Shown: positions 1-64,000 of the stretch, piece by piece
Layout of the letters: each line of letters begins with the position of its first letter
Numbering within the stretch: position 1 is the stretch's first letter
Assembly: GCF_000003815.2 (NCBI RefSeq)
Contig: NC_049984.1
Span: 26,153,338-26,217,337, forward strand
Source of the DNA: Branchiostoma floridae
Lineage: Eukaryota; Chordata; Leptocardii; Amphioxiformes; Branchiostomatidae
DNA: 64,000 nt
Reading direction: 5' to 3'
Notes under the pieces: model-generated
The model's input: only the letters and a program-made list of their open reading frames with translations
Database searches by the model: none
Told to the model about the DNA's origin: nothing
Translations under genes and position numbers: made by a program

Positions 1-324
1 CTACGTTCGCTGTACTGCCTCCCCATAAGTCTGAACCGTTCCTACTTGTCTACGTTACTTGTATTCTATCCATGCGTATAATGTATATTTTTTTTTCAAT
101 CAAAAGATATGCTTACTTTGCGAGGGGAGAAGTTCGCAATTCTTTTCAGAATGTGATTATGGTCCTCCCTGTCGTGGTGCTCTTAGTGGGTAATGGTGCC
201 TACTTCTGGTACATATAGGTCCTTAGTAAAGTCCTCTCCCTAATGCCCCTCCACCCTTGCTCGAAACCGTATGTTGCTCTAATGACCTCAGAATTTCCAG
301 TTCTGATTCCTGGATGTGGGGCCG

Positions 325-485
325 TCATGTGTGATATGTATACCCTTCTGGTATCAAATCGTTCCGTATGTGGTGAAGTGCGTCTTCAAAGGCCAGACTG
401 TCTTCTTCTTGCAAAAGGTGCATCTTCATCAGCACTTCATCCGGAACACATGTCTGTGTTACTGGTGGATGGGCAGGGTTGGCAT
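325..485 (-). CDS. terminal exon of an unrecognised gene
   Basis: On the minus strand a pyrimidine-rich tract ending in TTAG precedes a 53-codon open stretch that closes with a TGA at 325-327. The peptide is acidic and rich in Leu, Glu and His (for example LLQEEDSLAFEDALHHI) and ends EGYTYHT. It reads as a last coding exon because it has a plausible acceptor and its own stop. I do not recognise the family. The plus-strand frame over the same bases looks less protein-like. Orientation agrees with the other exons of this half of the window. Confidence 0.35.
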
Positions 486-778
486 CTAAGTTGAGCAACA
501 AAGCACATCAAAGTGATCAACACCATCCTCTAAAATGTCAGGACAGAGTTGCAGTTGTAAACACATAGCATTGAAATAAACCATGACAGGGTGTTGTTCA
601 TACTAAATGAATTTTTTCCGGTTGTTGGCATGTACAGCTTGCATGACAGTATTTCAAAATAGTATTTTTTTTTAATAATCAAGAAATGAAATCAGTTTGT
701 CAAACTTACAATCAATCTGCAGCATTTTCTTCAAATTAGCTTTGCTCATCCTATACACTTTTTCCCTGGCGTCGTGAA

Positions 779-1062
779 TCAGCTACCAAAGATGGAGAGG
801 CCGGGTGTCACCCTGGTGTCGTCGGTGTACTGAACATCAGTGACAGTTTCTAAATGGCAGAAGGCATACGTTTGAGGTTTACAAAATGGTCCCTCTGAGG
901 TCTCAGTGGAAGATACACAATAAAAAGAAAACATTAGAAATGTCCAAATAATGCAGACCATAGGCTCACATAAATTTATGAATAATGAAATAAAGAGCTT
1001 ACCAACATCTAGCAGTCCATAGAATGCCATCCCCGCTTTAAGGGTTTTGGTGTGAGGTCCTT
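779..1062 (-). CDS. two-exon 3' end of an unrecognised gene
   Basis: Two minus-strand exons join in phase. The first (1062-1003) follows an ACACCAG acceptor and ends at a GTAAGC donor. The second (894-779) follows ACCTCAG after a T-rich tract and ends in TGA. The junction leaves one base on the upstream side, completed by two downstream. The peptide includes MAFYGLLDV, then FCKPQTYAFCHLETVTDV and a short tail. No domain is recognised. Phase continuity and good splice signals support a real gene end. The 5' portion is not identified. Confidence 0.45.
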
Positions 1063-1195
1063 CTGGTGTACAGGAATACGTCCAAAATGATTATATTAAT
1101 AAACGTAACATTGCAATATGATAAGTAAAAATCAACATTAGGACAATACGTCATATGACAACATAAATAAATTGTGATTAAATTTAAAGTAAAAA

Positions 1196-1579
1196 CTACA
1201 TTATGAGCATCTTCTTCCGTGTCTTATGCATAATAGATGAACGTGGAAACACGGGCGATGTATTTGTCCTTCTCCACCCGCCCCTAGACCTACGTCCAGG
1301 CCTGGACGCTCCTCGTCCTGAATGAAGACATGAATAAATCAATACATGAATAAATTAATACATCAACACATGAATCAATCTCGAATAAATGCACAAATAA
1401 ATTAATAACAATACTAGTATCAGGGCTGAAATGCGTACATCGTTCAGGTAAAATACTTTAAACAAAATGTTTTATACTTTCAAAAATTACAACTTACGGG
1501 CCACTCTTCCATTGGCACGCCGGCCTCGTCCCGCCGCTGCCTGGCCAGGTGATGGCTGATGGTCCATTTGTTGTTGAAA
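1196..1579 (-). CDS. arginine/glycine-rich C-terminal exons, possibly an alternative tail of the GTF2I-like gene
   Basis: Exon 1579-1498 follows TTATACAG and ends at GTAAGT. Exon 1317-1196 follows CATTCAG and ends in TAG. Joined in phase they give a Gln/Pro start (FQQQMDHQPSPGQ) followed by RG-rich sequence (GRGRRANGRVA, RPGRRSRGGWRR), the composition of an RNA-binding RGG tail. The first exon is phase 0. It would splice in frame to a GTAAGA donor lying inside the last exon of the gene at 1810-2938. The tail could therefore be an alternative end of that protein, or a separate gene. Confidence 0.4.
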
Positions 1580-1809
1580 CTGTATAAAGATAAAATTTCA
1601 TCAACCTATCATTTATGTAAACGTTTAAAGCTGCCTTGCCATGTAGTTTCTTGCTATGTTCCATTCTAATGTAATATCACAATTTCTGTGACATCTGAAA
1701 GTTCTACTTTGATGTAAGACACACTTTTAGCCTGAAGAATATTACTAGCACTCAGACAAAATCAGAATGTTGTGGCATTTTATTCACAGAACATAATACA
1801 TGTACTTCC

Positions 1810-4932: not shown

Positions 4933-5715
4933 CTAAGACTCTAATAGATTTGCATTGTCTATTATAGGTGGTCCATGGTACTGCTTATGGTAATGTAGTT
5001 TCGCCATGGTGGGGAAGCCATTGCCACAATGAGAAGGATGGGATTTGTCAGGCAGGTGAACAGTAGTGTGTTTCTGTAGTCCACATGTGTTACAAATGTG
5101 TTCCAACATCACATGTATGGCGTCTACATGTTTGTGGAGGCTGGAGTGATCGTCGAAGCACTTCTCACACCTGGTACACTGTACTCCCCTCGGTACCAGC
5201 GGTGGTGCCTGGCCTGCAAGCGTCTGCCGGTTGAATGGCTGGTCACATTCTTCACAGATGTGGGGCTCATCAGCTGTGGCCTTTTTTCCAATCGTTATCG
5301 GAATGCCATTGTCAATTTGAAGTTTCTGCAGAAGAATAGAGAATGTATGTCTTGGAGAGGATTCAGCTATGTTGTCGGACACTAAAAGTTTCATAGTTTT
5401 CCAGGAGTGGCCAAAACATGTTAATTCGGATCCGTATAAAACTATGGGCTTTACAAATTTATCAAAAAGATTTTTGCCTTTGGTATTGACATATTTTCCG
5501 TTAGTAACTGATTTTATTTTTAGAAATAGCTCTCTAGCTTTAGATTTTAAAAACTTTCTGGCCGTTTTAGACTTGCCCGAAGACGTTACCGGTATACCAA
5601 GATAAGTGTAGCTGTCCGTAAGTTTTTTTCTTCGCCATATAAAGATTTCTCTACCGCGCCTCGTTGTAACAGGTAAATATTTGCCGTGAAAGTTTAACGA
5701 AGAATTGCATGACAA
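4933..5715 (-). pseudogene. non-LTR retrotransposon RT C-terminus fused in frame to degenerate C2H2 zinc fingers
   Basis: A single 260-codon minus-strand frame has two parts. Residues ~1-145 match the region after the catalytic core of LINE reverse transcriptases (YLGIPVTSSGK, then a Lys-rich helix and KPIVLYGSEL). Residues ~150-250 are zinc-finger-like: a Cys pair ICEECDQPF without a clear His pair, a good C2H2 finger (CTRC ... HKHVDAIH) and a further finger missing one Cys (HCGNGF ... HYHKQYH). There is no RT active-site motif, so it cannot be an active polymerase. It is either a LINE copy that inserted beside a finger exon or a chimeric gene. A related RT piece lies at 7040-7175. Confidence 0.7.
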
Positions 5716-7039
5716 GGTAAGCCTTATTATATAATTATTAGCAGGCGGGTGCGACGTCGGTCAGGCTAAGCTAAATACGTTTAACTGATCATCTATATAT
5801 ATATAGATTCCTTATTAAAGCCAGCAAACTTTCCCAGCCTGTTTTGTGCTTTCACTGCACCACTTGCTTCTTTTTCTTTCCTTTGCCTTGAGAGAGGGAG
5901 TCAGGGAAGTATGGAATAGATGTGTTCTTATGACGAGATGTACGACACAACGGAGTGAAGAAAGATCCAGCAGTTTTACTTGATTTTGCATCGTTTACAT
6001 TTGAATAGAATTCTTGATATTTCATTTAGTCCTATTTATGTTATACATATTAATGTAAACACATCGGACAACTGATTTCTCAGAACGTAACATCATTTAA
6101 AAAAAAAACCTTTCCTGTTCAATGGATGTTGATGACGTGCTTCACGGAGCTCATGTGAAGCTCAACTGCTCCTCGCAGCTGGGTGATGATATTCGCCTTC
6201 TCTCGGCGGTTCACCTCCAGATACACGGTACCGGGAATCACGCACCCGAGCCTCTGTTTGCCTTGGGCTTTTCAATGCTCTCCCGGAACTCAGCTCCCCA
6301 TGCCTCCGCTGCTTCTTAGACGTAGACCAGCTTACGAAGGCGGCACCGGACACTGTTAATCACAAATGTCCGGTAGACCTCCTCCGTTACCGGCACACGT
6401 GGTCTGACGTGCTCCGGCAGGCGTTCCAGTGCTGGTCGTCCATCCTCATGAAGAAGTCATTCTTCATTCGCTGAACTATGATCCTCACTCACCGTGGCTT
6501 CCCTATTTTATTGTAGTCCCAGTTTTTAGCATGTAATTGATATCCATGTGTATTTGACGTATGTATCACATGTTCACAGCAAACCACACGGCGTCATTAA
6601 AAAGAGAAGTACATCCTTGGTTTCAGAATAATTTGTACCCACCCGGTAGTTTTCACATCTATCATGATCTATCTAATCAGGTCAAGTTTTACACAACACA
6701 GTTCAATATCGGATGAAATCACTATGTCCTCTTATCCCGATACTCTCCCATGTTTGATGTGCACATCAGATACCTGACGGACATACTTCCCAACATTTTG
6801 CTGTGTCGACCCTTTCAGAAGCATTTGGGAGTCTCCTTCTAATCTATGCTCGATGCAGGATACGACTCGTCTGACTTGAGGATCTGGGCAGAACGGGGGG
6901 CTTACCTGAAGTCGTCACTATGTCTTTTTAGCACATTCATAGAAGGAACAACGGGAGTCCCTTTGAATTTTGACCATGGGAAGAACTTTCCTGGGCCAAA
7001 ATTGATTACGTAAGTGCGAGTCCGACCAGAAGAAGGACT
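5716..7039. other. no recognisable gene
   Basis: AT-rich sequence with only short open frames on both strands (the longest is about 65 codons, near 6122-6353). I see no domain, convincing splice pair, terminal repeat or RNA gene. Confidence 0.5.
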
Positions 7040-7175
7040 TTTCAAATCGTTACCGGAATGATAATGTCAATTGGAAGAATAGAGAATACATTTCTTGGAG
7101 AGGATTCCGCAATGTTTTCGGCCACTGAAAGTTTCACAGTTTTCGAGGAGTGGTCAAAGCTCCTTTCGTTCTTCT
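7040..7175 (-). mobile_element. second fragment of the same non-LTR RT C-terminus
   Basis: About 130 bases are clearly similar to 5290-5425 in the same orientation. The minus strand encodes a diverged copy of the same segment (VKLSVAENIAESSPR against MKLLVSDNIAESSPR at 4933-5715). Internal deletions break the frame. This is an older, truncated copy of the same LINE family. Confidence 0.6.
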
Positions 7176-8779: not shown

Positions 8780-9110
8780 GTCCCATTTCAATTTCAATTC
8801 ATCCCGAGGTTCTTTGATGTCGTTTATGGCCTTCACCTTCTCGGGGTCTGGCTTGACTCCCTCGGCTGAGTAGACCATTCCAATTTGCATAAACTTTCCT
8901 TGATTATACATTTTGCTGCATTCAGTTTGATGCCAGCTTGTCTGGTCTTCTCTATTGCTTCGTGCAGATGGAAGTCGAAAGCGTCATCTGTCTTTCCGTA
9001 CGCCTGTATGTCGTCCGCAATTCCGATTGATTGCCGCATCTTATGGTCAGACTTACCTGGAATTTCAAACCTCTCTCGGTACGTTCCTGGACAGCATAGC
9101 CACCTATTGT
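8780..9110 (-). pseudogene. Ty3/gypsy reverse transcriptase palm fragment
   Basis: The minus strand encodes GIADDIQAYGKTDD, the DD box of a gypsy-type RT, followed by a helix (LHEAIEKTRQAGIKLNAAKC). After a frameshift comes VYSAEGVKPDPEKVKAI, the conserved segment downstream of the RT active site. No protease, RNase H or LTR is found next to it. It is a short broken relic. Confidence 0.8.
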
Positions 9111-9399
9111 TAAGGAAAAATGGTGAATAGTTGTAATAAGGTACTGTTACGGCTTAAGCTTGGTCAATGGTGGTGTTACTGTTAGGCATGTTGCTTTCTC
9201 TCTGGATGGGCAGTACCCTTGTTCGACTTTCAAGACCATGTAACCTTGGAAAAAGAAAAAAAAAAGTTAGCGTTTGCTTTCGTGTGTAGAGGGGCGGTTC
9301 GCGATAGTCAGGGTCTGGATCAAATAAAGCAAAAAAATAAATCAGCTATACTGTGTGAAATAAAGCAATGAATGAAACTAGCTTTTATGTTGCAATTTT

Positions 9400-16825: not shown

Positions 16826-17464
16826 TTAGGAATTTTCAGTAAGGAAGTTCATAATTTCCCGATAGTGATCTGCAAACGCATCAAGCTGGCCTCTAGGAAT
16901 TTGCCTGCCATTTTTTTCTTGTAGGTTTTTTTGTTGGTTCTTTCCTTTGCACTTCCAGTTTTCGAAGGGGAAATCAGGTTTCCCAGCATCGGCTAACTCA
17001 CGGTGGACAAGACAGAAACCAATGCATTGCTCCTTTAGGTGTTCTAGAAAAGGTTCACTCCCTCTAGACCACATGACCATGAAGTTAATGAATGTATCTG
17101 ACGCGGGTGGCATTCATCTGAAAATAGATTTGCATTTGTATTCAGATACAAACACTTAAAGTGCCTTAGAAAGCTGTTCATATGTCAGCTTACATTTGTA
17201 CCTTCGGCAGGTTTGTGGCTCTAACTTAGCCAGTTCAGGGTGCAGCTTGTGAGGTTCAATTTCAGGTACAACTACGACCTCCTCATCATGATCAGAATCT
17301 GAGCAGGTGTCTGTCCAGTGTCTGTCATGGCCTGATGATGAAGTGGAGGGAACTGAAAGTGATGTTTTCTTTTCTGTTTCTGCAGGATTGACTCTGATAT
17401 TTTGACTCACTTGAGTGTTTAAAGACATGTTGGGTTTGATGATTTGTCCTCGAGAGTCATGCAC
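16826..17464 (-). CDS. two-exon fragment of an unrecognised gene
   Basis: The upstream minus frame 17464-17156 is Ser/Asp-rich (DTCSDSDHDEEVVVVPEIE) and ends in a basic helix (CRRYKCKLTYEQLSKAL). About 50 bases later a TTTTCAG acceptor precedes frame 17113-16826. This has hydrophobic/charged sequence with FLEHLKEQCIGFCLVH and a terminal helix FADHYREIMNFL before the stop. Nothing identifies the family. Spacing suggests adjacent exons or a decayed continuous exon. Confidence 0.3.
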
Positions 17465-18152
17465 AAGTAGCGCTGCAATGGCAGGGTTTCGTGCCAGGAG
17501 ATGGCGATTAAGTCGGATACATTTGTTGTGTCTTCTCTATCGAGTGCTCCATAGACTTGGACACGTTCTTTCTATAGGTGAAGGCAGTGTCCTCAAACCC
17601 ATGTAACATGTTCTCAACTAGATCCTGCACGTCAGAATTCCGGTAGTCCAGTTTTCTTTCAAAACCACATTGACGCTGACGTCATACTCGCTAAAGTAGC
17701 GGTCGTCTTGCTCAAGGAAAGGCAACGTCGCCGACGTAAGCTTTGAACACGTGTCTAAGCGTTCCATGATCACTTACAGGGGATACAGTCTTAATTTCAA
17801 CCCCTGTGTAGCAAAACGTCTTCTCGAGCTAAAGCTAATAGTCTACATTAAATGCATTAAAGAGTGAGCAGATGAGGCTACCAAACGTGTCGTCTTCCGT
17901 GTATGTTTCATACGGGATTTCTCCCCTGTAGAACCCCTGTAGATTGCGTTCAGCTAAGAACTGTACAGATCACTATTGTTTATTTGTACATATTGTATAC
18001 GCCACACATGTGCATTATGGACATGTTTCTAGATCTGACACCGTATGTGGCATTGTTTATTATAGTAGGAAAATGGAAATATAGCTTCCTTTTCAATGTG
18101 ATGACAAACGAATGACTTAGCTTGTATAGTTGCCTAAACTTGGAATGAGAAT

Positions 18153-18651
18153 TTACTCAACATCCTCGTTTACTTTGACAAGGATACTAACCAGATCGTG
18201 CCTGTCCCCCAGATATTCAATTGCCAAAGCCAGTTGAGTAAGATATGTGGACCCGCCTTCAGGACAGCGGAAAGATGCGAAACTTGGAATGGTGGAGTAC
18301 CCGATGATGAAATCAGCCTCATCTGGGTATGCCACTATGCACGGTTCAGGGGTACTGAAGTAACTCCAGGAACCGTTTATTTTCTCCGACCCTGATATGA
18401 CTGCACAATTATTTGGGCTTGCCACTCAGGGACGGGTAGTTGTTGTTTGACCAAGTCGTTGATGCTGACAGGTATTTTATCAGATCCAGAAACATGCCCA
18501 TCGTCGCCGTGTGACAAATACATGCTACAAAACAGTCCAATTCTGTATGGTCCGCCCAACGAATATCGCAGAACACCTCGTTGATTTCAGCGTGGGTTAG
18601 GACAACAAGGGACCCTCAACCCAAGTTTGACGAAGATATAGATGCCTTTTT
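18153..18651 (-). pseudogene. caspase pseudogene (large and small subunit)
   Basis: After a TCTTTTCAG acceptor the minus strand encodes a caspase-like fold in three frames. These are a segment resembling the helix before the active site (LTHAEINEVFCDIRWADH), then LSHGDDGHVSGSD carrying the catalytic histidine, and after another shift the small subunit. That last part includes ADFIIGYSTIP, SFASFR and ILVKVNEDVE, followed by a stop. Caspases cleave after Asp and carry out apoptosis or inflammation. The active-site pentapeptide QAC(R/Q)G reads QSYQG, so the catalytic Cys is Tyr, and at least two frameshifts are present. It cannot be an active protease as assembled. Confidence 0.85.
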
Positions 18652-19015
18652 CTGAAAAGAAAAGACAATTTACACTTTAGGGGTATTGTAAACAAAACAA
18701 TCACTGTTGCAAAATGTTCTATACATAAAAAATGAAGCGGTACATATAGATGTCACAATGTATGCAAGCTTTGAAAGAACTAATCTACCGCATCTCATTC
18801 ATATGCCTGACGTATTCATCGTGGAGCCTCTGCTCCGTCCGGACCATCAAATTTGCCCTCCAGATAGGCGAGGTACGCCATGTCTTCCTGGAATTATTCC
18901 CAGGAGGCTTTCTAAGTTAAAGGTTTCACAACATATATACACAATGTAGCAAGAATTGGCATATGTTCATGTACATATGCATACCATACCATACAATATA
19001 TATCTTTCAACAATG

Positions 19016-19441
19016 TTAATAAAAATGTGCTTTTTGGTGTATTATCGGCCCAAAGTACTGGTAAGATGCGGGTTTGCCTTCATGGGGCATGACTGCACTG
19101 TGTTCCTCTGCAACAATGGTAATTCTCTCGAATAACTCAGTTTGTAACCTTCCTTCGGCGGATTCAATACAAATGTTTACGTATTCTCTGTTTGCTAGAA
19201 TGTCTGAATTCTTTCCATCTGATATGTCCTCCTGCGACGGCTGTATTGTAGGCGTGGCAGGCTTGTTTTCACTGACAGCATCCGATTCGTCAGATGACAT
19301 GGTGTAGAGGAAGGGCGTGTGGAGCGGGATTGAAGTTGTGATTGGAGACAAAGAAGCTTTACTCTCTTTTTCCCGAAAGCTGCAAAGAAAAATCCTTTTA
19401 TTAGTTGTTAAGTCCGATTTGAACAACGTAGAGTAAATCAA
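19016..19441 (-). CDS. hypothetical exon, acidic then helical
   Basis: A 141-codon minus frame whose middle reads as a soluble protein (SSDESDAVSENKPATPTIQP, then GRLQTELFERITIVAEEH). A further helical piece lies downstream on the same strand near 18790-18900 (MAYLAYLEGKFDGP), with a frame change inside it. No family is recognised. They may belong to the gene upstream of the caspase remnant. Confidence 0.25.
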   Translation of the reverse strand: MIYSTLFKSDLTTNKRIFLCSFREKESKASLSPITTSIPLHTPFLYTMSSDESDAVSENKPATPTIQPSQEDISDGKNSDILANREYVNICIESAEGRLQTELFERITIVAEEHSAVMPHEGKPASYQYFGPIIHQKAHFY

Positions 19442-19858
19442 GAAAAGACACAGAAAAAATCCTTTGATATTCCTTGCGTATGTTGCAACAGAGATATTTT
19501 AAAAACATTTCCACCTATTTCATGATTATTAAAATTCAATCTGTGTAGCTGGAAGACCCAGGTGGACAGAAACATGCCTACCCTCTTTTAATCTGTATCT
19601 AAAATAAATAGGTGAATGGACTCCTCTGATTCCTCGTCCACAGTATTTAATACTATCTTCTGGGATAAGTTGTGATGCCCTTTCTTGTGGCCAGGTAGCC
19701 AGCTTCAACTTTCATTCGGCAATTTAATTTTTGTATTGAAGGTTGTTAGATTCTTATAAAATTCCTGCGGATCAAGCCGATACATTGACCATACTAAGAA
19801 GTCGATTAGCACCTCTGTTTATTTGGGCAGTAAGTTGAAATATTGTACCGCAAATGGC

Positions 19859-20380
19859 ACAGTTCTCTTCTTCTTTCAATGATATCTCTGCCTCACTTTG
19901 TACACTATCCACCTGTGGTGTTACCTCTGTTTCTTGCAAATCTCTGTCCAATTGATTTCTGTCACTTTCTGTGTTGTTCCTAGTAATGTTATGTTGTGGC
20001 ATCCCAACGAACAGCAGTCGTTTCTTTCGGTCTTCCGTGTTTGTCGTATTTGACTGTAGCAATCAAGTTGGTTACCTTAAAACGACCTCGTGCCTCACTT
20101 CCCATTTATCAGGCATGCCTAGATACGCAGGACTATTTGTTCCTCTGGCCAGGAAACTAGTTTCTGATGGTCTGAATGAACTTATCTAAGTCTTGCGGTA
20201 AAAATGACTGCCATCTTTTCAAGAGAACATTCTCGCAACTGTTCTGGGTGTATGAATAATACCCTTACCAGACGAAATATACACAGGCCACCCAAATCAC
20301 TTCACTGCCATGAAAAGTGACAATTTTCCATCTATCAAAAGCACATTCGTCAGTCTGAGTGTTCACTTTCCTTGACGGCC
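19859..20380 (-). repeat. dispersed inverted repeat, copy 1 (partner at 52695-53222)
   Basis: About 520 bases match 52695-53222 on the opposite strand, by eye around 85-90 percent identical with small indels. In both copies the sense strand contains coding-like stretches (LPQDLDKF, LVSWPEEQIVL), each interrupted by stops. The coding look, high copy similarity and opposite orientation suggest a transposon ORF. The family is not identified with confidence. Confidence 0.75.
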
Positions 20381-20441
20381 TTTGACACCAATACAGTTTT
20401 TCCAGGCTTATTCATGCCAATGCGTAAGATCCCCTCTGACC

Positions 20442-20906
20442 TCACATTTGCTTACCACCATTGAACTTGGCATTCACGCTCATAAATTTCTCAGCTGCAT
20501 TACTTGTCTCATTTTCAATGAGCTTTGGACAAATTGACCATACCCTGTCTGAGCACTTCTGTTTAGCTGCCATCAAACCTTCAGGTAGTGAATCAAGCAG
20601 ATAAGATGACTCTCCATCTCTTGCTTCTTCTTCATCTTGCTGTGTATAGTCCTCCTTATTGACGTCTGGGACTAAACTGTCAACATGGCTCAGTTCAATA
20701 TTATCTGACAGTTGAGAATCAGGGTCTTCTACGGGTGAATCACTACTGGTGTACAGTACTGGTGTCCAGGTTGGTTCGTTGTCCTGTAGTTGTGTTGGTG
20801 GAATCAGGATTGAAATTCCTTGCAGTTTCCTCCAACACTGCACACACTTGCAGAGATGAATTTTAGAAAATATGCACAGCATCAAACATATATGCAGTAT
20901 CTCCAT
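20442..20906 (-). CDS. transposon-like protein fragment with an AEKFMSVNAKFNGGKQ motif
   Basis: The minus frame runs about 154 codons. It has an acidic middle (DSPVEDPDSQLSDNIELSHV) and ends in NAAEKFMSVNAKFNGGKQM. That last motif resembles a conserved stretch in animal transposon-associated proteins that often also carry a YqaJ-like nuclease. The resemblance is from memory of the motif only. It lies just upstream, in coding sense, of the repeat at 19859-20380 and could be part of the same element. Confidence 0.35.
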   Translation of the reverse strand: MEILHICLMLCIFSKIHLCKCVQCWRKLQGISILIPPTQLQDNEPTWTPVLYTSSDSPVEDPDSQLSDNIELSHVDSLVPDVNKEDYTQQDEEEARDGESSYLLDSLPEGLMAAKQKCSDRVWSICPKLIENETSNAAEKFMSVNAKFNGGKQM

Positions 20907-20993
20907 AAAAACACGTGATACAATTGAAGATGAATGTACGCTGTGGCAATACTTAGTGTGAAACTATGTCTTTCATCTGATCATTAGAAACAG

Positions 20994-21191
20994 TTACTTA
21001 GACAAGGCTGGACTCCTGGAAAATTGAACAATATCTTCATCATTAACCATCTGAATTAGCTGCAAACGTACGGACATGAACAAACAGCTGCCATCTGTAT
21101 TTGAGGGGCCACTGATATCATCATTTTTACTTTGCATAAATGTGTTGTAGACAATTGTTTTCTCTCTCAAACCCAATAAAGATCTGAACAC
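20994..21191 (-). CDS. hypothetical short exon
   Basis: A 65-codon minus frame (FRSLLGLREKTIVYNTF, then SVRLQLIQMVNDEDIVQF) ending in TAA. It reads as soluble protein but has no recognisable domain. It lies just beyond the stop of SAP-like copy A on the same strand. Confidence 0.2.
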   Translation of the reverse strand: MFRSLLGLREKTIVYNTFMQSKNDDISGPSNTDGSCLFMSVRLQLIQMVNDEDIVQFSRSPALSK

Positions 21192-21315
21192 CTATAAAAT
21201 ATACCATACATTTCTTCAGGTGTGGCTGTAGCTGTTAAATAGCTTTCTTGCAGCTGTTCCTTTGGCGGAGTATGCTTCTCACACCTCGACAACCTTTTGA
21301 AAATGACAGGATGAA

Positions 21316-37222: not shown

Positions 37223-37413
37223 AGCTTAACACAAAAAATTTGGAAACTTGATTTTGATCTGTAATATCTCTATATATACTCTTTCATTTGTTGTGTACAG
37301 CCTTATCAAGCTTGTTTATTGACCCTTACAATGTTATTCCATTTGTTATGATCGTACATTAATCGTAGGGATTTCAGCAGTTTTGTTGTCCACTTGCCTG
37401 GTTAGCGTTGGTG
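37221..37413 (+). repeat. HECT gene intron segment, copy 1 (partner at 57556-57742)
   Basis: About 190 bases starting TAAGCTTAACACAAAAAA and ending TGGTTAGCGTTGGTG are nearly the same as 57556-57742. There the sequence is the start of an intron directly after a HECT N-lobe exon. Here it leads to the C-lobe exons. Similarity stops at both ends. Confidence 0.9.
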
Positions 37414-37750
37414 TTTGACCTTTTGACTTTAGAATAATGACAATTGTCACATCAGTGTAAAGAGTAATAAAAGTTTTACAATGATACATAATGCCGTATA
37501 ATTATCAGTTTATCTAGTAAACAAAGACGAATGACTGATAAAATTCATTATTATGAATTCTTGTGCTGTACTTGTAAGTCTTGAAAGCAAGTACATTTTA
37601 ATTATAGCTCCCCAATAGACTCATAAACACACCAACAAAAAATGTATTGGAATAGGACACAGACCGTGTGTCGCGTTTAATCACTTCTAAATCTCACCGG
37701 TGTGTTTTCAGCTGTAAAGTGTGTGATTGTCGAATTCGTTTTTGTTGCAG

Positions 37751-41405: not shown

Positions 41406-42354
<949 letters not shown>

Positions 42355-42440
42355 AGTGGGGATCGACCCCACGATTCACGGCTGCAGAAGCAAATAGCTA
42401 CCTTCACACAGTGCCGTGGGCCGCTAGGCCACGGTGACAC
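42355..42440 (-). repeat. tRNA-like sequence (SINE head or tRNA pseudogene)
   Basis: On the minus strand an A-box-like TGGCCTAGCGG and a B-box-like GGTCGATCCCC are spaced as in a tRNA with an enlarged middle. Acceptor-stem pairing is not evident, so a functional tRNA is unlikely. It probably derives from a tRNA-headed SINE. Orientation is opposite to the coding relics on this side. Confidence 0.45.
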
Positions 42441-43103
42441 CTTTACATCATCTGGCGTGTGGAAGGGTTTCCTTAAATTGAGTGATCCATGTATTCATGC
42501 ATTCGTTGGTTGAACTAACCGCTTCTCTCACCAATAATTATCTTTAAAGAATGAAATGCAAATATTGACAGCTGAAATATCATTTATTGCGTTTTTTCGT
42601 GTGACTTTGTCAAGGCGTTTTGCTGTTAAGGCTAATCAACATAATCTATGTATATAACGGAAATCACTTTGTACTCTACTTTGTGAGAAGCTGACACAAA
42701 ATTTTAACCTGATACGATAAGCTTGATTATGTACTGCTCTACTCCGATAAATATGACCATATAAGTATATTTGAGTTTGATATAGCTAGAGTTTAACTAC
42801 TACGATGGCCACAACTGCTATAACATGCCATGAAGGTAGGTTTAAAAGGCTTGCGGCAGTAAGCATTGAACCAAAGACCCGCTTCTCCCGCCTCAGAGAT
42901 ATACACATACAGTATAAGTCCTATAGACTTACTAAAAACTCGTGGCCAACTTGAATTCATATCATCGCCAAGTTTCCCAAGACAAAACAGGTCTGTTCGA
43001 TTAGAGTATGAAATAACACAACGCAGAAACAAAATTCTGACGAAAGAAATGTAGTAAAGTACAAACAGAAATCGCCCCCCTGCCGGTACCGGTACAACTT
43101 ACA

Positions 43104-43930: not shown

Positions 43931-43969
43931 TCCCAGTCGGCCACGGTAGTCTACACTTCGAAGGCAGGA

Positions 43970-44185
43970 CGCTACAACTGTTGAAGAGCTGGTTGGCGTC
44001 ATCAATCATAGTTACCCCAACACGCATACGGCGGAGTTCGACGCACTGGAGGATGTGAAGGGGTTTCTCGGCATCGTAAGCAACGACTTGGAGCAGCACA
44101 GCTGCACTCATGCCAACAGATTTACCAAGGGGCTTGAAGAGAAGCTTGTCCTCCAGTACATGGTATTTGCTATTCTGTTCTAGTG
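43970..44185 (+). CDS. short exon-like open stretch, unrecognised
   Basis: The plus strand reads [20 protein letters not shown], then [20 protein letters not shown] and a charged end before TAG. It looks like a soluble acidic protein piece. The minus strand is also open here ([20 protein letters not shown]), so strand is uncertain. The plus reading fits the orientation of the region. Confidence 0.3.
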
Positions 44186-47231: not shown

Positions 47232-47662
47232 ACGGACCATGAGGATTGCGGAAGAGCCTTCCTGAAGCTGAAGAAGTACTAAGCTCCACACCGGTGCTGA
47301 TCATGGCGGACCACACAAAGCCGTTTGTAGACTAGTGCAGTGATACAGGAATCGGAGCAGTGCTGTCTCAGGTGGATGATACGGGGCGAGATAGACCGAT
47401 GGCATACCGAAGTAAGAAGTTGAGTGAAACCCAACAGGAATGGTCCACCATCGAGAAAGAATGCTATGCGATTGTGTTCTCTGTAGAGCAGTTTCGGTAC
47501 TATCTGTATGGGCGGTCCTTCACGATTCAGACGGACCATAAGCCCCTGTCATGGCTGGCACAGGTCAGGGATCGAAACAGGAAACTTATGAGGTGGAGTT
47601 TCCATAAAAGGGACAAGGAAAATGCTAATGCAGACGCCCTCAGCAGGACATGGTCCGATTAG
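47232..47662 (+). pseudogene. gypsy RT C-terminus and RNase H domain
   Basis: The plus strand reads GRAFLKLKKY, then after a frameshift LSSTPVLIMADHTKPFV, a TAG, and CSDTGIGAVLSQ, RPMAYRSKKLSETQQEWSTI, EKECYAIVF, LYGRSFTIQTDHKPLSWL and ADALSRTWSD. This is the Ty3/gypsy RNase H run, including the D..D..IGAVL start and TDH box. RNase H removes the RNA strand during reverse transcription. A shift and a stop disable it. Confidence 0.9.
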
Positions 47663-47893
47663 AGAAATGTAGAGGTGATGTAAGTAATCGCCAGATAAGA
47701 TGACAGAGAACATACATGTAAGTAGAGGAGAATAGCTTTCTAGTCTAATCTTTACAAGTCAATGTATAGCTAGTGCGATCAATTTGTTAGCAAAGTAGTT
47801 GATGTAGACTCGTTACCAGTACTGACTATTTTCATTCATGTTAGACTTCAAGTTGTTAGAAATAACCCTGTGGTGTTAAGTTCTTGGGGGAGG

Positions 47894-51341: not shown

Positions 51342-52694
51342 ATGAATAATTAGTCCATTTTGCCTTAAGTTTGTTCTAGATGATGTGATGATGTATACAT
51401 TATCATTTTTCTTCTTTGTTAAGTATACAATCATGTATGAAAAATGTGTAGGAAAGTTCGCTGGAATGCTACACACAAAAATGAGACAGTGCTAATTTTG
51501 TGGCTTTGGAGAGTATTACGTAATGTTCAAACTTCAACTCAAATATGTCAACAGATGAACGCTCTGAGAATTAATGCCAAATTCAATGAAGGTCGGAGTG
51601 ATAATAGGAATTTGGTGAAGTGTTCCAATTAAGTAATGTATTTATGCGTATCTCTCAAGAATACAGCAAGGAGCAAATGTAAAGGCCATCTCTTAAAGAT
51701 GATGTACATTGTATATTCTAGGGGGCAATGGAGTTCCATCCTGGAAGCGTCATTCAAATCCTTTCTGATTTGTGTTTTTGTTGAACAGGAGGTTTTTTTT
51801 ATTCAAGATGAGTATGTTTGATGCTTATAGGTTTTTATCCATTGTACGCACAATAAATACGAAGGAAATTTTTTTTAAGTATTTATACACTATGGCCGAT
51901 GAATATGTACCAACTCCATAAGGCCATCTTTCATTTGCAGATGGTGAGTCTGTGTACGTTTTAGGTGGTTCTAGTTGTTTAATGCAGGCAGGTTGGGAGT
52001 TAGCAGCACACCTTAATCAGATCTGTTTTAAGATTTCTGACAAGAATATCAATATTGTGGAGATCCGACAAGTAATGACCTCTAAATCTAGGATACAACC
52101 ACTATCAGGTGCTGATGGCTTTCTACATTATTTTTGGTGCACTGTATCTTTTCAAAATGAGCTGATGGACAAAGTAATCAAGATTTTCCTACAAGAAATA
52201 AAATGTACTCAACAGAGGCCTGAAAGGACAGCAATCGTCACTTGACTTCTGTCTAATCTCTCATCATTTAGTTTGAGCAGGAACAACTGTCATAACAGGC
52301 GGCATATCACTGGCACATCTACAATGTGTGTAATAGGACCTGGCAGACATCAGCTGTTCTCATGACAGAGGGGAGGGCCTACCACTCCTCTACACACATT
52401 GGCTCCACGCACCGACTTATCATCCTCAGTGGTCTTACTGTGGTAGGGAACGCCACCACCTACCATCCTCTATCACAGGCAGTAACTGTTGATGTTGACT
52501 TTAACACCACAATTTTTGTTAACATGACAGGAATCCCAGATGTGTATATTCAAAACCATACGGCTACACTTACTCACTGCATTTAGCGTGTCTTTGGTGG
52601 TTTGTGTCAGAAACAGTCTGTTTGTTCTGATGCAAACTTGAAAGAAATTAGTCATACTCTTCATTTCATTGACATCGCTTCATAGTCATTTCAC
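51342..52694. other. no recognisable gene
   Basis: AT-rich sequence with open frames under 100 codons. The frame at 51952-52245 looks partly protein-like but has no recognisable motif. Confidence 0.4.
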
Positions 52695-53222
52695 GCCGTC
52701 GAGGTAAGTGAACACTCAGGCTGACGAGTGTGCTTTTGATTGATGTAAAATTTACCACTTTTCATAGCAGTGAAGTGATTTGGGTAGCCTATGTATATTC
52801 CGTCTGGGGCGGGTATTATTTATACAACCAGAACAGTTGCGAGTCTGCAAATGCTCTCTTGAAAATATGGCAGTCATTTTTACCGCAAGACTTAGATAAG
52901 TTCACTCAGACCATCAGAAAACTAGTTTCCTGGCCAGAGGAACAAATAGTCCTGGCATATCTAGGCATGTCTGATAAATGGGAAGTGAGGCACGAGGTCC
53001 TTTAAAGGGAACCAAATTGATTGCTACAATCAAATACGACAAACATGGAAGACAGAAAGAAACGACTGTTGTTCATGGGGATGCCACAACATAACATTAC
53101 TAGTAACAACACAGACAGTGACAGAAATTAATTGGTGAGGGATTTGCAAGAAACAGAAGTAGCACAACATGTGGATAGTTTACAAAGTGAGGCAGACATA
53201 TCATTGGAAGAAGAAGAGAACA
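52695..53222 (+). repeat. dispersed inverted repeat, copy 2 (partner at 19859-20380)
   Basis: Similar over about 528 bases to the minus-strand sequence at 19859-20380. In this copy a 91-codon frame survives (NALLKIWQSFLPQDLDKF, IRKLVSWPEEQIVLAYLGMS, DKWEVRHEVL), so this copy preserves more of the coding sense. That supports a transposon ORF, but I cannot name the family. Confidence 0.75.
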
Positions 53223-53716: not shown

Positions 53717-54106
53717 GTGCACGTGTTAGTGACGACTATGGTAGCGATGACCCTAATGAACCAGCCGCCAGCTGCCAAGTGTCGTAAACCAAAGGAAAAC
53801 GTTGATTCAACTTCGTATTACACACGTCACTTGCCAAAATTAGACCAGATTACATTCAATCGCCACCTCTGGAACACTGAGGATAGCCAGATCCTACAGA
53901 AATGACCTTACGAGATGATCAAGAACCTGAGGCAGGCAACAGAGGGTTTCGACATGCTGCGTATAGACAGTGGGTACCAGTGGTATCATGGCCGACTAGG
54001 GGAGGAATACTGGGTAATAATACCTAGTTGTGATGTCTACAGGATCAGGGACACTTTTCCGGATCCACAAGGTCAGTACACAGGTTTCATCGCAAACCGG
54101 CTGTAA
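53717..54106 (+). pseudogene. P2X7-type C-terminal (ballast-like) domain, one nonsense codon
   Basis: Two stretches in the same frame, separated only by TGA at 53903-53905, end with YWVIIPSCDVYRIRDTFPD, then GQYTGF. This matches the end of the P2X7 cytosolic 'ballast' domain (IPSC...R..FP...G.Y.GF), preceded by LRQATEGFDMLRIDSGYQW and GRLGEE. In P2X7 this zinc- and GDP-binding domain follows the channel. Here no channel segment is present and the upstream Cys cluster is not seen. Such domains occur without a channel in some invertebrate proteins. Confidence 0.75.
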
Positions 54107-54795: not shown

Positions 54796-55206
54796 CTCAG
54801 GTTTTTCACCTTTAAACGTACGTCAAACTTTCTACCCAATGGCCGTTTCGATCCCACGAAGCAATTCACGCTACGTGACTTCAGAAGTCAGCACATCCTC
54901 TTACGTGTTCGCATACGCTGGTCCAAAACCCTGGTCAACCATATAATCGCTATGTCGAATATCCTTAACCTAGGACTGCGTCCGTCACTAGCCTCCTGGC
55001 TCATCGGTTGCTTGACGAATAGAAGTCAGAGGGTGCGTTATAAGAACACCTTCTCAGACTGGAAGAGTACAACATGTGGCCTCCTACAAGGGACGGTACT
55101 TGGCCCGATTATCTTTCTTGCTCTGATTAATAGTGCTGCCGAAAACGCAGTCTCCAGGCGATGGAAATTCGTCGACGACTTAAACCTAGTTACCAAGAAA
55201 GAATAA
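54796..55206 (+). pseudogene. non-LTR retrotransposon reverse transcriptase fragment
   Basis: The frame carries LVNHIIAMSNILNLGLRPSL, ASWLIGCLTNRSQRVRYKNT, a GLLQGTVLGPIIF box (usual G.PQGT.LGP) and WKFVDDLNL, the catalytic (Y/F)VDD. It resembles Jockey/CR1-like LINE RTs. Only motifs around the palm are kept and no endonuclease is visible, so it is a 5'- and 3'-truncated copy. Confidence 0.85.
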
Positions 55207-55617
55207 ATACATCAGATTCATCACTGCCACTAACTACTATACGAAGTGGTGGGTAGAGGCGTTCCCACTTACAGACAAATAAGCGATTTCTGTGGCTGCA
55301 TAATGAATAAGACGGAACGGCAATGGACTGCATTTGCGTTTTTCTGACGTTTTCAGACCCGTTCAGATATTAGATAAACGGTGTTTTCCTTGCATGTATG
55401 AAAAGAAACATTACGTGTCTTTGTAACGACACGGATTTCCAATAAACGCTGTTTTGGGTGTAAATATGGTCTATAATTTCTTTTCCCCGTCAGCTAGGTC
55501 GCAACCATAAACTCCGTTACTTGCTGGTTTCAAGGTATAAGTAAGCAGTGAACCTCGTAGTTTTGCCCACATAATAAATTATCATATAGCCAAGCGCCGC
55601 GGACCAATCAGAAGTTA

Positions 55618-56987: not shown

Positions 56988-57120
56988 ACGTTAGGGAATA
57001 GAACTATAGCCTAGCGTCTTTTGATCACGTAACTCAATTTATTTGATAACGGATCACATATTACCACCAATATATCGCAAATAGTTTGGGGAGGACGGTA
57101 CCAACCCCCAAAAATGCGCA

Positions 57121-57554
57121 GTCAACCTCAATGATGAAAAAACGTATGTAGTCCGGAGGGACAATGTTTGGAAATCACTAAAAGAAAAACTGGCTAACAA
57201 AAGAAAATACGATCCCTCCAAAAATGTGAAGGTCGTTTTTATTGGGGAGGAGAGCACACAGGAGTTACGAGGGCCAAGAAACGAAATGTTTCGCCTCGCC
57301 CTTCAGGGAATGTTTGAGAACAGCGGGCTTTTCGAGCCTAGCCCAGACGGCTACCTGCCCGGAAATTCCCCAGTGGCTTTGATCCAAGGGGAGTTTGTAG
57401 TGGCAGGCAATGCCATAGCCATGTCTGTGGTACACCTAGGGCCTCTACTAGCTGCTTCCATCCTGCCATTGTGGCAGCTTTGTCAGGGGAGAAGCTGCCA
57501 GACATGTCACACTTCAACCATGTCGACCCCGCCGTGGCAGCGTTTGTCGAGGAG
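57121..57554 (+). pseudogene. HECT E3 ligase (G2E3-like), N-lobe exon with a frameshift
   Basis: After a weak ATGCGCAG acceptor the frame reads RRDNVWKSLKEKLANK, VKVVFIGEESTQELRGPRNE (the conserved R of the HECT N-lobe), MFRLALQGMFENSGLF and NAIAMSVVHLGP. From about 57446 the coding sense moves to another frame, CFHPAIVAALSGEK, DMSHFNHVDPAVAAFVEE, ending at GAGGAG^GTAAGC (57554/57555). The intron that follows is the one at 37221-37413. The C-lobe exons are absent here. Confidence 0.8.
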
Positions 57555-57555
57555 G

Positions 57556-57742
57556 TAAGCTTAACACAAAAAAAGTTGGAAACTTGATTTTGATCTGTAT
57601 ATCTCAATATATACTCTATCAATTGTTATGTACATCTTTATAATGCTTGTTTATTGCCCCTTACAATGTTATTCCATTTGTTATGATCGTATATTAAGTA
57701 TTTCAGCAGTTTTGTCGTCCACTTGCCTGGTTAGCGTTGGTG
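57556..57742 (+). repeat. HECT gene intron segment, copy 2 (partner at 37221-37413)
   Basis: Directly follows the N-lobe donor. It shares the run AGCTTAACACAAAAAA, then AACTTGATTTTGATCTGT and CCACTTGCCTGGTTAGCGTT with the copy at 37 kb, with small differences. The two copies diverge abruptly after GTTGGTG. Confidence 0.9.
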
Positions 57743-58390: not shown

Positions 58391-59400
58391 TCATTGGCTG
58401 GGTTATTGACCAGAATGTCGCCGAGAAGTTGGGGCAAGCCATGAGAGATGTGGGGGTTGGGACGTTTTACTTAAGACAGGAGGGAAATACGCAGGGCACC
58501 AACACCTTCAAGTGTATGTCTTTGTCAGGTATGACATTTCTTCACATGTATAATGATCAAGCCCGCAAAACAAACATAAAAGCTAACCTGGTACAAGCTT
58601 AACTGTTGCAAAAAATATAATATTTGGATTACGTATAAATTGAATTGCAATTTGAACTATAAAGGACATAGATCTAATAACTGCAATTCACTTTTACCCA
58701 CAAAGAGCTCAAGAAAGCTATAAAGCTGCTGCCAGACAAACTATCAGATCATTGAGAATGTTGGCTTAACCAAAGAGGCGAAGATCGATAGTTTGCAGGG
58801 GCGGACGCTTACGGTCATCCTTATAGTAAAGCTTATAAAGTACCTGTTTTTGCCTCCCTACCATTTTGTGTAAATATATATGGTGAAGTTCAAATAAATA
58901 AATAAATAAATAACAGCAAAGGAGCAAAGGTTCCGCACAAGATCTCCGAGAGGAAAGCCCTCCTTAGGGAACTTCTGGGAGGAGCAGAAAGGGTGAGCTG
59001 TTTCAAAGTAGATGTTGTTCGACCCTTTTGATATTTGAAAATGTGCTGAACTAATGTGTATGGCTTCACATTTGAACCCGTTTTCTCCACATTTACTGTT
59101 TGCCCTATGTAGATAACACTACCTGGGAGGCCAGGTAATCGTGTACAGATCCGAGTGGCTGATGTTCAAGAGATTTGGCAGGTAAGTTGCAAAATTTGTA
59201 ATTGGGTAATTTCTTCTATAGAAAAAAGATCATTAATAAAACGCAGAACAAATGATAGAAACAAAAATTAGCGCAATGATTTATCTATACCATAATATAC
59301 TGCCCTCTTCACAGGAGTTCTCGAGGATTATGGACATGCTCAAGGACCCCATGCTCCATTACAACGATAAAGCAGCTGGAATAGATTGACTTTGAAGTGT
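58391..59400 (+). pseudogene. SAP-like gene family, copy B
   Basis: Exon 58391-58527 (LIGWVIDQNVAEKLGQAMRD, VGTFYLRQEG) follows CTTTCAG and ends at a GTATGA donor. A broken exon near 58702-58995 parallels the SAP-like exon of copy A (KELKKAIKLLPDK, then KGAKVPHKISERKALLREL) but has stops and an insertion. Exon 59113-59181 (ITLPGRPGNRVQIRVADVQE, ending GTAAGT) matches copy A's VKLPG exon, two codons shorter. A further exon begins at 59315 (EFSRIMDMLKDPMLHYNDKA) and meets TGA. Order and phases agree with copy A on the opposite strand. It is decayed. Confidence 0.6.
58811..58912 (+). mobile_element. LINE-like 3' tail inserted in an exon of copy B
   Basis: About 100 bases that have no counterpart in copy A interrupt the SAP-like exon. 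They end in a tandem AAATAAATAAATAAATAA tail, typical of CR1/L2-type LINE or SINE 3' ends. The exon sequence resumes immediately after. The insert is too short to encode protein. Confidence 0.6.
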
Positions 59401-59476
59401 ACTTTCGTCCAGACAACATTGTCTGTGAAAGGATCTTTGATGACAAGGCGTGGCAACAAATGAATCTGTCTTGTCT

Positions 59477-59620
59477 NNNNNNNNNNNNNNNNNNNNNNNN
59501 NNNNNNNNNNNNNNNNNNNNNNNNNNNNNNNNNNNNNNNNNNNNNNNNNNNNNNNNNNNNNNNNNNNNNNNNNNNNNNNNNNNNNNNNNNNNNNNNNNNN
59601 NNNNNNNNNNNNNNNNNNNN
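59477..59620. other. assembly gap
   Basis: 144 ambiguous bases, just after a SAP-like copy B exon. Confidence 1.
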
Positions 59621-61121: not shown

Positions 61122-62047
61122 TAGTGCTGACACCTAATTTAAGCTCCGATTAGCCAAATCTAGCCTGTGCATATGGATATTACACTAAATTGCACTAGAA
61201 GACGCGGAGCCGAATGTGAACCTAAAATGTGAAATAATGATTTAAAAATGAATAAATGATCTTTAAATGTATTTCAGATTTTGTGCTGAAGATGGAAGTA
61301 AGACTGAGTGGACCGATGTACGAGGACTTTCACAGATGCGCAGGATCTTTGCCAACAAGTGCACTTCAGCAAGGGACTAGGTAGGTAGTAGGTAGGCACT
61401 TCAGCCTGCCGGGGCACGGAAAGAAAACTGCATGTCTAAAGAACAGCTAAGTTCTTTGACTTGATTCACTATTAATCGTCTTAATATTGGTATTTAAACT
61501 TGATACTGCACAACAACAATACTAGTACTGCCGACAAAGAATAACAACACTGTATTTTAAACATATTCTATCATTTATATTCTAACTCATACATGTGTTC
61601 AATTCCTGGTATTCTAACAGTTGGCAATGGCGACTGTCTTTGCAATACGGTCATGCTGCTGACTGGAAGTGACGACTGCACAGCAGTGCTGCGTTTGGGT
61701 GCCACAGTTTATGCCGAAATACAGGTACTTGTTAGGAGATCAAAAGAACTTGAAGTTTGACTCCTGCAAATGTAAATCTGAAACAATCAAGGCAACGATG
61801 CCACCAGAGGCATCAGAAGGCGTGCACCGATCACAAGAGACGGGCGAAGAAAACGACATCAACATAGGGGACACAGTCCTAGCTGAACGTTTTATGTATT
61901 CATCCGGACTGAGATGGCACGATTTTCTTTAATCATTGTACCGGTAGCAAGCGTGGAGTTATGATATTAGTTACAAAAGGCATAGTTGTACACGATTGCA
62001 TTAAAGACAATGATGGCCGATTGTTAATACTAAAAAAAGCGATCCGG

Positions 62048-62220
62048 TCCAAGAGCAAGGGGCGAAGAGGAAGTACAACCACACCTCAGCAGAGATGTAC
62101 AAGGGATATCTTCCCGTCAGGTAGACGGCGCGGTGCCCAGCACATGTAGCGTAGATGATTTCGGCGCGGGTACCGGGTCCAGCACATCTTGTGAGGATGA
62201 CCTCTACAATAGTCCGGCTC
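62048..62220 (+). CDS. plus-strand copy of the RKY-HTSAEMYKGY segment
   Basis: GAKRKYNHTSAEMYKGYLPV at 62060-62130 corresponds to RKYTYTSAEMYKGYPALR of the minus fragment at 10393-10545, with nucleotide similarity over about 85 bases. A 1-base difference changes the frame just upstream. The sequence continues in another frame with a Ser/Asp-rich stretch (SVDDFGAGTGSSTSCEDDLY). Role unknown. Confidence 0.45.
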
Positions 62221-62239
62221 CAAGTTACTAGTAATCTCG

Positions 62240-62425
62240 CGCTCCAAGCTCATCTCATGTAGAGGACGACGTCAGAATGTTAACGGACATGTTTCCGGGC
62301 TCCCTAGGCAGCCTGGGCCACAACGCTGTGATGGACATCAGGGCCAGGTCGCAGAGCATAGATAGTGCCCATAAGAACATTATTCGGATTCTACGGCCGC
62401 GCAGGTTGTCAAAGTTCTCGTTTGT
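62240..62425 (+). CDS. short exon-like stretch
   Basis: The frame reads VEDDVRMLTDMFPGSLGSLG and VMDIRARSQSIDSAHKNIIR before a stop. The 'ML..MFP' run recalls CUE/UBA-like ubiquitin-binding helices, but it is too short to be sure. A stop separates it from the hAT sequence that follows. Confidence 0.25.
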
Positions 62426-62911
62426 CGGGGTTTGACCAGGACTTCCAGAAGCCTCTCGTTGCCATGGGGAAGCTCCTCCTGGACGCGGCCAATGAAGTCA
62501 CGTCGTCTGTCTTTGGGAAAGACCTGGACCCTCCCAAGCTGACACGCCACCTCTTCATGCTGCCCGACATCATAGAGCAGGCACTTCCTAAGGTGAAGAA
62601 AGTGACGAGTATAAGAACCATTTTTTTCCGCAATGGCCACAGCCTCGCTGTCCCTCACATTCTCCCAAACCCACAAACTACTCCGGCTCTATCTCACAGT
62701 ACCCATCACTTACGCCACATCTGAGAGCACATTCTCCTCATTGAAGAGACTGCTCACATACCTCCGCTCCACAATATTAGAACAGCGACTGAACAACTGT
62801 ATGCTGCTGCACATCCACAAAAACATTGTTGATAACATAAACCTGACAGACATCGCGGCGCACAATGAGAAATGTGCTGTTCTATATGAAATTTTTCTAA
62901 CATTTGAGTAA
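62420..62911 (+). pseudogene. hAT transposase C-terminal part (ZMYM1-like)
   Basis: The frame 62420-62620 reads FDQDFQKPLVAMGKLLLDAA, LTRHLFMLPDIIEQALPKVK. After a frameshift near 62630 comes LLRLYLTVPITYATSESTFS, SLKRLLTYLRST and RLNNCMLLHIHKNIVDNINL, the hAT C-terminal dimerisation domain with its conserved ATSE..FS...R...YLR. The N-terminal catalytic part is absent. It is a decayed domesticated-type or transposon copy. Confidence 0.85.
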
Positions 62912-62979
62912 CGAGTGCAAATAATGCCCTTCCCTCCTGTATACTGCAAGACGATCAGCAAGACGTGAAAACTGACTCT

Positions 62980-64000
62980 CTGCTGACTTAATTAAGGTAT
63001 TTCAAATTCATTTGTAAACAGGAAGCATGAACTGCTTTTGTGAAATTTATGAATAGAGATGAACTACTTATCTTTTTCAGAAATTATGTCTACAGACTTG
63101 GTAAGGCACTTTACGCAAGGGGAAATAAATAATCCTCTTAAGAATAATTGTGACAAATAACCTTTACACCAACAACCACTTCACTGTGTTCTGTCTAGAA
63201 TGTGATATACATGAACATGAACATGGACATGACAATCCTTGACAATTGTCTATATCCCTTTCAGGCCTACAACAATCTGTGGACGACAATCTCTTCCTAC
63301 TACATCCTGATGAAAACACCGCACATCTATTAGGATGGATGTCGCAGTGTAGAATAGAAAATCCCATAAATACATAACCCTTGTGCAACATATATGTAAT
63401 GCTCTCTTTTGTCAGTGTTGAATGTGACAAATAACACTTCTATTGGAAATACTTCTACTGGAAATTCAATTTCAACTTCCAGCTTATAAAAGTTATTTTG
63501 TAATATTACTCCTTGTCTATAGATCAAACAAAACAACTTCCAAGGAAACCAGACACATGTAATCCGTTTTCTTAATCATTCAAAACCTTTTGTGCTATGC
63601 TAAAAAGGGTCGGATAGTGAGATTACAAGACTCGACTTCTGGACCCATCTCCAAATACTATGTAGCTTCATCAGTCATGGCCTGTTGCATGATGCTGTAT
63701 CATGACCCAGGGGCCACAGCTTTTGCAGGCAGTGCATTCTTCGCTGGTTAAGATATGGTAAGAAACAATGTCCTGTCAGCAGGGTGCCACTGAGGGAGGA
63801 CCATCTCACCGTATCTGGTCTTAAGCAGCTTGCGGAGTATTCCAATATGAAGTTTTGTATTCGTCTGTAACAGAAAATCTTTACACAGTGCCTGCTGCCT
63901 GTAATGAAGGCAATACAAAGGCACGAAGGAAATGTTATTGTTACAGTAATTCAACTTTAAGGAAACATTTGAAAATCAATATGAAACAGCATTTGCAGAA
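62980..64000. other. no recognisable gene
   Basis: AT-rich sequence with only short frames. No motif, repeat or RNA gene found. Confidence 0.45.

Follow-up and report, generated by a model that had tools for sequence, protein, structure and literature searches.

Opposite-strand blocks of gene and transposon relics in a 64-kb stretch of an amphioxus chromosome may reflect local inversion in a duplication-rich compartment

A 64-kb stretch of the Branchiostoma floridae genome (C6:26,153,338-26,217,337, where C6 is RefSeq contig NC_049984.1; hereafter the window) carries coding relics of transposons and genes that lie on the minus strand left of about 37.2 kb and on the plus strand right of it. 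We examined this strand split in the window, in its flanks (100 kb each side, 264 kb in all; positions count from the start of the window, with negative values in the left flank) and across the assembly of 513.4 Mb in 431 contigs. We put at about one in two the probability that the split consists of two co-oriented blocks in a duplication-rich, decaying compartment, and that local inversion or inverted duplication placed them head to head near 37 kb.

We searched all six frames, with X replacing stops, against Pfam in four groups of pieces (42 left-minus, 42 left-plus, 30 right-plus and 30 right-minus). At E ≤ 0.01, matches occurred only on the minus strand left of 37.2 kb and only on the plus strand right of it. 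The left-minus group contained Integrase_H2C2 (two pieces, 3.9e-5, position not placed by Pfam), Peptidase_C14 (6.3e-8), DUF6589 (0.0013) and a weak GTF2I match (0.01) at 1.9 kb. The right-plus group contained RT_RNaseH (1.5e-31), DUF7869 (6.6e-8), RING, P2RX7_C, a hAT dimerisation domain, RVT_1 and a weak Kelch-like match at 52,308-52,712. The top wrong-strand E-values were 0.022 (left-plus) and 0.018 (right-minus). A tblastn search with 120 gypsy-type proteins agreed, giving matches on the minus strand at 8.8-9.2 and 29.9-30.8 kb and on the plus strand at 47.2-47.7 kb; Branchiostoma proteins make up three of the window's four best gypsy-type relatives. The features to either side of the junction are as follows (LINE, long interspersed nuclear element; 'by reading' marks features recognized in the letters themselves).

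4933-5760, minus: 275-aa open frame with what we take to be a LINE-like C-terminal region; part of a second copy lies at 7039-7161, also minus
8786-9153, minus: gypsy-type pol remnant (16 tblastn matches among the 120 proteins)
16901-21619, minus: caspase-containing gene block of 4.7 kb, recurring inverted at 99.8-105.7 kb with 93-94% identity; caspase domain at 18156-18341 (E 6.3e-8)
22395-23036, minus: exons labelled SAP-like A in the first-pass annotation, the one nearest 23.0 kb by reading
25507-25878, minus: predicted exons upstream of SAP-like A, by reading; exon 25506-25554 comes from exon scans
29274-29612, minus: C-terminal fragment of DUF6589 (Pfam 5.4e-5, below the curated cut-off)
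29936-30802, minus: gypsy-type integrase region with an H2C2 zinc finger (61 tblastn matches, best 1.3e-20)
43950-44162, plus: DUF7869 fragment (located by Pfam at 43,953-44,162)
47243-47713, plus: gypsy-type RNase H region (Pfam 1.5e-31 at 47,339-47,599; tblastn 1.1e-56)
53978-54088, plus: P2RX7_C domain fragment (Pfam 2.5e-6)
54967-55221, plus: LINE-type reverse transcriptase fragment (RVT_1 0.0032, below the curated cut-off)
57085-57558, plus: exon with a donor at its end, matching a predicted B. floridae protein (84% over 39% of the query)
58391-59474, plus: SAP-like B exons, by reading, with exon 59113-59181 in the scan; frameshifted, interrupted by an insert and running into a gap at 59477
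62666-62824, plus: hAT dimerisation domain relic (Pfam 4.3e-6)
63682-63777, plus: RING finger exon (Pfam 9.8e-7)

Besides predicted exons, about four independent units on the left and about seven on the right can be supported; these 11 exclude the weak GTF2I and Kelch-like matches, both of which fit the strand rule. The first-pass annotation, made from the letters of the window, had counted about 17 fragments on the left and 14 on the right and had called the split far from chance. We could not reproduce these counts. Its labels LINE (5 kb), Penelope, Ulp1, tyrosine recombinase and Harbinger stand on reading only, and for HECT Pfam gave no confirmation for either exon set. Open reading frames of at least 80 aa show a weak asymmetry (left 59 minus and 49 plus; right 39 plus and 33 minus), and for those of at least 30 aa the balance is reversed (left 379 minus and 411 plus; right 264 plus and 286 minus). 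For 11 coin flips and any single breakpoint, a perfect split has a probability of 22/2048 (1.1%); with about 8,000 windows of 64 kb in the genome, the split alone is compatible with chance. Pfam and tblastn matches thus agree on the opposite-strand arrangement, but the original counts are not confirmed, and base skew turns at 42.1 kb and not at 37.2 kb.

Several of the relics look like exons of multi-exon genes and not like separate transposon landings, and several counted fragments would share a strand because they are exons of one unit. SAP-like A, on the left, and SAP-like B, on the right, have exon sequence in common and are paralogous; exon 22576-22778 of SAP-like A has an acceptor and a donor and its counterpart lies at 58.7-59.2 kb. 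Protein Data Bank searches of 22.2-37.2 kb on the minus strand gave no match.

We next looked at transposon orientation genome-wide, using the best 150 of 4,467 RVT_1 candidates, the best 150 of 165 DDE_Tnp_4 candidates and hAT domains (286 of 297 listed places, the other 11 being second pieces of one element). This sample showed no orientation agreement, with 12 neighbours on the same strand and 11 on different strands 3-60 kb apart, and 18 and 16 at 3-100 kb, of which 5 and 5 were across families. RVT_1 alone gave 6 same and 1 different within 110 kb (P 0.06). We conclude that a genome-wide rule of transposon orientation is not seen at this sample's power. The premise of the first-pass annotation that transposons land at random thus accords with the genome-wide sample, but it applies poorly to those counted fragments that resemble gene exons.

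DNA of the window is repeated locally, in both orientations. The caspase-block sequence at 18156-18600 has seven genome matches (self included), and all seven are on C6 or on the small contigs C234, C384 and C245. On C6, copies lie at 26.17 Mb (minus), 26.26 Mb (plus, C6:26257336) and 26.45 Mb (plus, C6:26449228), and C234 carries an opposite-strand pair separated by about 4.5 kb. Identity between copies is 94-97%, with 83% for a partial copy on C245. The first 193 bp of the plus-strand unit at the junction have ten genome matches; six are strong (85-100%, self included) and all of these lie on C6, within 19.8-27.8 Mb, with four on the plus and two on the minus strand, the remaining four being elsewhere and short or weak. 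These nearby, high-identity, low-copy blocks with copies in both orientations are what is expected of segmental duplications. Such clusters with inverted copies are, we take it, what are called ampliconic regions; the blocks here resemble them in copy number, identity (83-97%), double orientation and confinement to one chromosome region and small contigs, but differ in that the copies are short, decayed and mixed with transposon relics, and no long palindrome lies at the junction. The part of C6 past 19 Mb, 1.8% of the genome, also holds 11 of 33 hAT, 28 of 70 DUF7869 and 10 of 55 DUF6589 genome matches (the fragment at 29274-29612 is not among these 55) and 9 of 104 merged DDE_Tnp_4 loci; the best RVT_1 matches are not concentrated there (2 of 150). 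Along this contig, decayed transposon-type domains concentrate at 19.5-22 and 25.7-28 Mb.

The first-pass annotation had proposed a large inverted duplication centred near 37 kb. Self-blastn of the window at E ≤ 1e-3 argues against this, as the only inverted matches across 37 kb are of 527 bp (19,862-20,379 with 52,695-53,221) and 101 bp. An inverted pair is present on a larger scale. The caspase block at 16.9-21.6 kb matches 99.8-105.7 kb in inverted segments of 2.0 and 2.6 kb (93-94% identity), so that the midpoint of the pair falls near 61 kb and its right arm is beyond the window's edge. Further inverted matches link -87 to -69 kb with 69-73 kb (80-86% identity), and the flanks carry gypsy-type matches on the minus strand (-61, -47, 135 and 147 kb) and on the plus strand (67.6 kb).

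We also asked how base composition changes across the window. The A-minus-T skew of 1-kb blocks is negative in 30 of 37 blocks on the left and positive in 16 of 27 on the right (0 of 20,000 block permutations were as extreme); the change point that fits best is at 42.1 kb. Skew is -0.142 (left) and +0.097 (right) within the listed relics, some of them by reading, and -0.059 and +0.054 outside them, about 7 and 5 standard errors from zero. Non-exon sequence around the predicted exons at 33-42 kb has the opposite skew sign (about 2 and 3 standard errors). GC skew, considered as a replication signal, has no matching step (two-domain statistic 6,838 versus 76,236 for AT). In the flanks, 4-kb blocks are negative without exception from -88 to -52 kb (9 of 9, 36 kb) and from 112 to 164 kb (13 of 13, 52 kb), with mixed signs between -52 and 0 kb. 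Over the 264 kb, with skew taken at ±10 kb, 30 of 37 pair blocks have a repeat-pair orientation that tracks the local A-T skew, and none of 2000 circular shifts did as well.

At the junction itself, predicted exons of a minus-strand gene meet a plus-strand unit that belongs to the repeated DNA.

34390-37206, minus: predicted gene with exons 34392-34476 and 36407-36454 (exon scans) and 36704-37206 (by reading; 69-bp repeats)
37207-37221, no strand: junction, by reading, between the predicted minus exon and the plus unit; homology to 57556 starts at 37221
37221-39280, plus: unit with exons, by reading, near 37751-37915, 38665-38898 and 39191-39280, the final one terminated by a stop; its HECT label is unconfirmed by Pfam

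The segment 37221-37413 is 89% identical to 57556-57742 in self-blastn. Because 57,556-57,742 follows the donor of the 57.1-kb exon, the plus unit starts inside an intron-like segment at the junction. At one threshold, exon prediction gave 8 minus and 3 plus exons on the left and 4 plus and 2 minus on the right; a stricter scan gave 7 minus and no plus on the left and 2 of each on the right. A search with the left exon protein retrieved 50 candidates and no homologue at E ≤ 10, a Protein Data Bank search of the left gene gave a single chance match (E 0.29), and the substitution pattern of the minisatellites, including the repeats of exon 36704-37206, did not decide the coding strand. Two repeats of RNA polymerase III (Pol III) type, tRNA-like by reading, break the strand rule (34530-35121, plus; about 42350-42445, minus); neither was called by ARAGORN and Rfam, and the first has a diverged inverted match at -89.8 kb. 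Tandem arrays occur at 3.8-4.4, 32.4-33.3, 36.9-37.2, 43.6-43.9, 45.8-45.9, 49.4-49.6 and 50.2-50.4 kb. Many of the higher-scoring ones have a period divisible by three (18, 36, 42, 45, 63, 66, 69, 81, 84 and 162 bp), as repeats in coding exons would, and periods of 200, 62, 38 and 20 bp do not fit this pattern.

Taken together, local amplification of blocks on both strands, the inverted copy of left-block DNA in the right flank and the lack of a genome-wide rule lead us to favour block inversion or inverted duplication over a rule of targeting or selection. Each block would then consist of decaying multi-exon genes and transposon relics running in one direction. The two directions would come from inversion or inverted duplication and not from independent landings, since fragments of a single gene or copied block must share a strand. 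True transposon relics would agree in part through some of them having been carried in the blocks and in part by chance, the window having been selected for its pattern. Rearrangement of this kind has precedent in lancelets. In an excerpt of a study of the Chinese lancelet, inter-haplotype translocations and inversions amount to 5.15% of the genome, about 30 times the human-chimpanzee figure (PMC4284660), and excerpts of a study of a B. floridae family describe four large heterozygous inversions (PMC12500494). We also considered whether C6 might be a sex region; the latter study reports a B. floridae sex-determining region on chromosome 16-20, at 0-3.1 Mb.

Several observations weigh against this reading. 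The match between repeat orientation and skew depends on scale: it falls to 23 of 37 at ±15 kb (157 of 2000 shifts do as well) and likewise at ±20 kb (245 of 2000). Strict merging into 14 loci gives 24 of 33 at both 8 and 10 kb (P 0.022), 26 of 33 at 12 kb (P 0.009) and 20 of 33 at 15 kb (P 0.13), with one extra edge that contradicts its partner. Few of the window's relics have a counterpart on the other side of the junction. A DUF6589 match at about -75 kb (C6:26077746-26078840), within a stop-free open frame of 2,762 aa, is on the plus strand inside a minus-skew stretch; a second flank match to this family, at about -2 kb, is minus and fits the skew. The window has the strongest two-domain skew of 15 neighbourhood windows of 64 kb (76,236; the best not overlapping the 42.1-kb change point has 39,558) and thus stands out from its surroundings. 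Neighbours on C6 beyond 19 Mb, with DUF7869 added, are weakly co-oriented, at 10 same and 5 different within 60 kb (P 0.15) and, across families, 11 and 4 within 80 kb (P 0.06), and a runs test gives P 0.23; here RVT_1 places outside C6 were omitted and nearby same-family, same-strand exons were merged. The repeated unit starts at 37,221, but the change point of the skew is at 42.1 kb. One exon scan scores a candidate plus-strand exon left of the unit, at 36,826-37,205, overlapping the predicted minus exon 36704-37206; together with the even count of the stricter scan on the right, it makes the gene directions at the junction uncertain. This exon and the scale dependence of the match between skew and repeat orientation lower our confidence in block inversion and raise it in chance. 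Finally, the right arm of the 93-94% pair lies between runs of N (73.0-99.8 and 107.7-110.7 kb), so it could be a misplaced allele. The first of these runs (73047-99811, 26,765 bases) is nearly equal in length to a run of 26,779 bases at an unrelated locus on contig C8; both are probably gaps of standard size or withheld sequence.

Chance is the main rival to block inversion. Independent insertions of random strand, seen in a window selected for its clean split, are an explanation that we consider less likely than block inversion for the whole pattern, although they may account for the transposon share. The genome-wide neighbour counts and the 1% probability of an 11-unit split, set against some 8,000 windows, are what such insertions would give. 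They would not explain why sequence outside the listed relics flips its A-T skew as well, nor why skew and repeat orientation co-vary outside the window too (of 21 edges with both ends in the flanks, 18 agree at 12 kb, P 0.01, 15 at 10 kb, P 0.06, and 13 at 15 kb, P 0.16), and the agreement among RVT_1 neighbours also speaks against them. The first-pass annotation had further suggested two long, divergent transcription units with selection against antisense insertions. This has partial support, in that predicted exons, from scans and reading, do diverge near 37 kb. The Pol III-type repeats at 34.5 and 42.4 kb are antisense to those exons. The bias described in excerpts of PMC3517506 and PMC5717806, however, acts against sense insertions in introns. 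Orientation here is likewise tied to the surrounding unit, but the coding relics point the opposite way, on the strand of most predicted exons and not antisense to them. Moreover, exon-adjacent non-exon DNA is T-rich in the sense direction, whereas relic domains are A-rich in the relic sense. We regard it as improbable that the window holds two long host genes whose introns are under selection against transposons of one orientation.

The first-pass annotation also named a bidirectional small-RNA cluster. We hold it quite improbable that the window is a germline source of PIWI-interacting RNAs (piRNAs), in which one-direction relics in two transcription units would yield transcripts that feed silencing. 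Some piRNA clusters, of the flamenco type, are uni-strand or bidirectional. The relic-rich compartment (hAT and DUF7869 on distal C6) and the same-sign skew runs of 36-52 kb would suit this, and the window resembles such clusters in its many relics, many families and long one-direction runs; directionality depends on scale within the 264 kb and is weak at the megabase scale. It differs from them in that the relics share the strand of predicted gene exons, and no title among the papers found on amphioxus piRNA clusters and transposable elements points to such a locus. A broader version, in which distal C6 (about 19.5-28 Mb) would be both a graveyard of transposons and genes and a germline piRNA source, built of 30-60-kb one-direction domains whose walls (37-42 kb) would be transcription or inversion boundaries, seems very improbable to us. 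Least probable is an assembly artefact, in which allelic contigs of a highly heterozygous animal were misordered or misoriented. The runs of N around the right arm of the 93-94% pair fit this, as does the heterozygosity of 3.2-4.2% given for sequenced amphioxus in an excerpt of PMC12500494, but there is no gap at 37.2 or 42 kb, the gaps of the window being only at 43.1 and 59.5 kb.

We conclude that the pattern, though striking, is likely ordinary. If block inversion is right, transposon fragments confined to one strand on each side of a point can arise from local flipped duplicates, without a genome-wide rule. The finding also points to a lancelet chromosome compartment dense in dead transposons and decaying gene copies, which would suit asking how such graveyards form and whether small-RNA defence draws on them.

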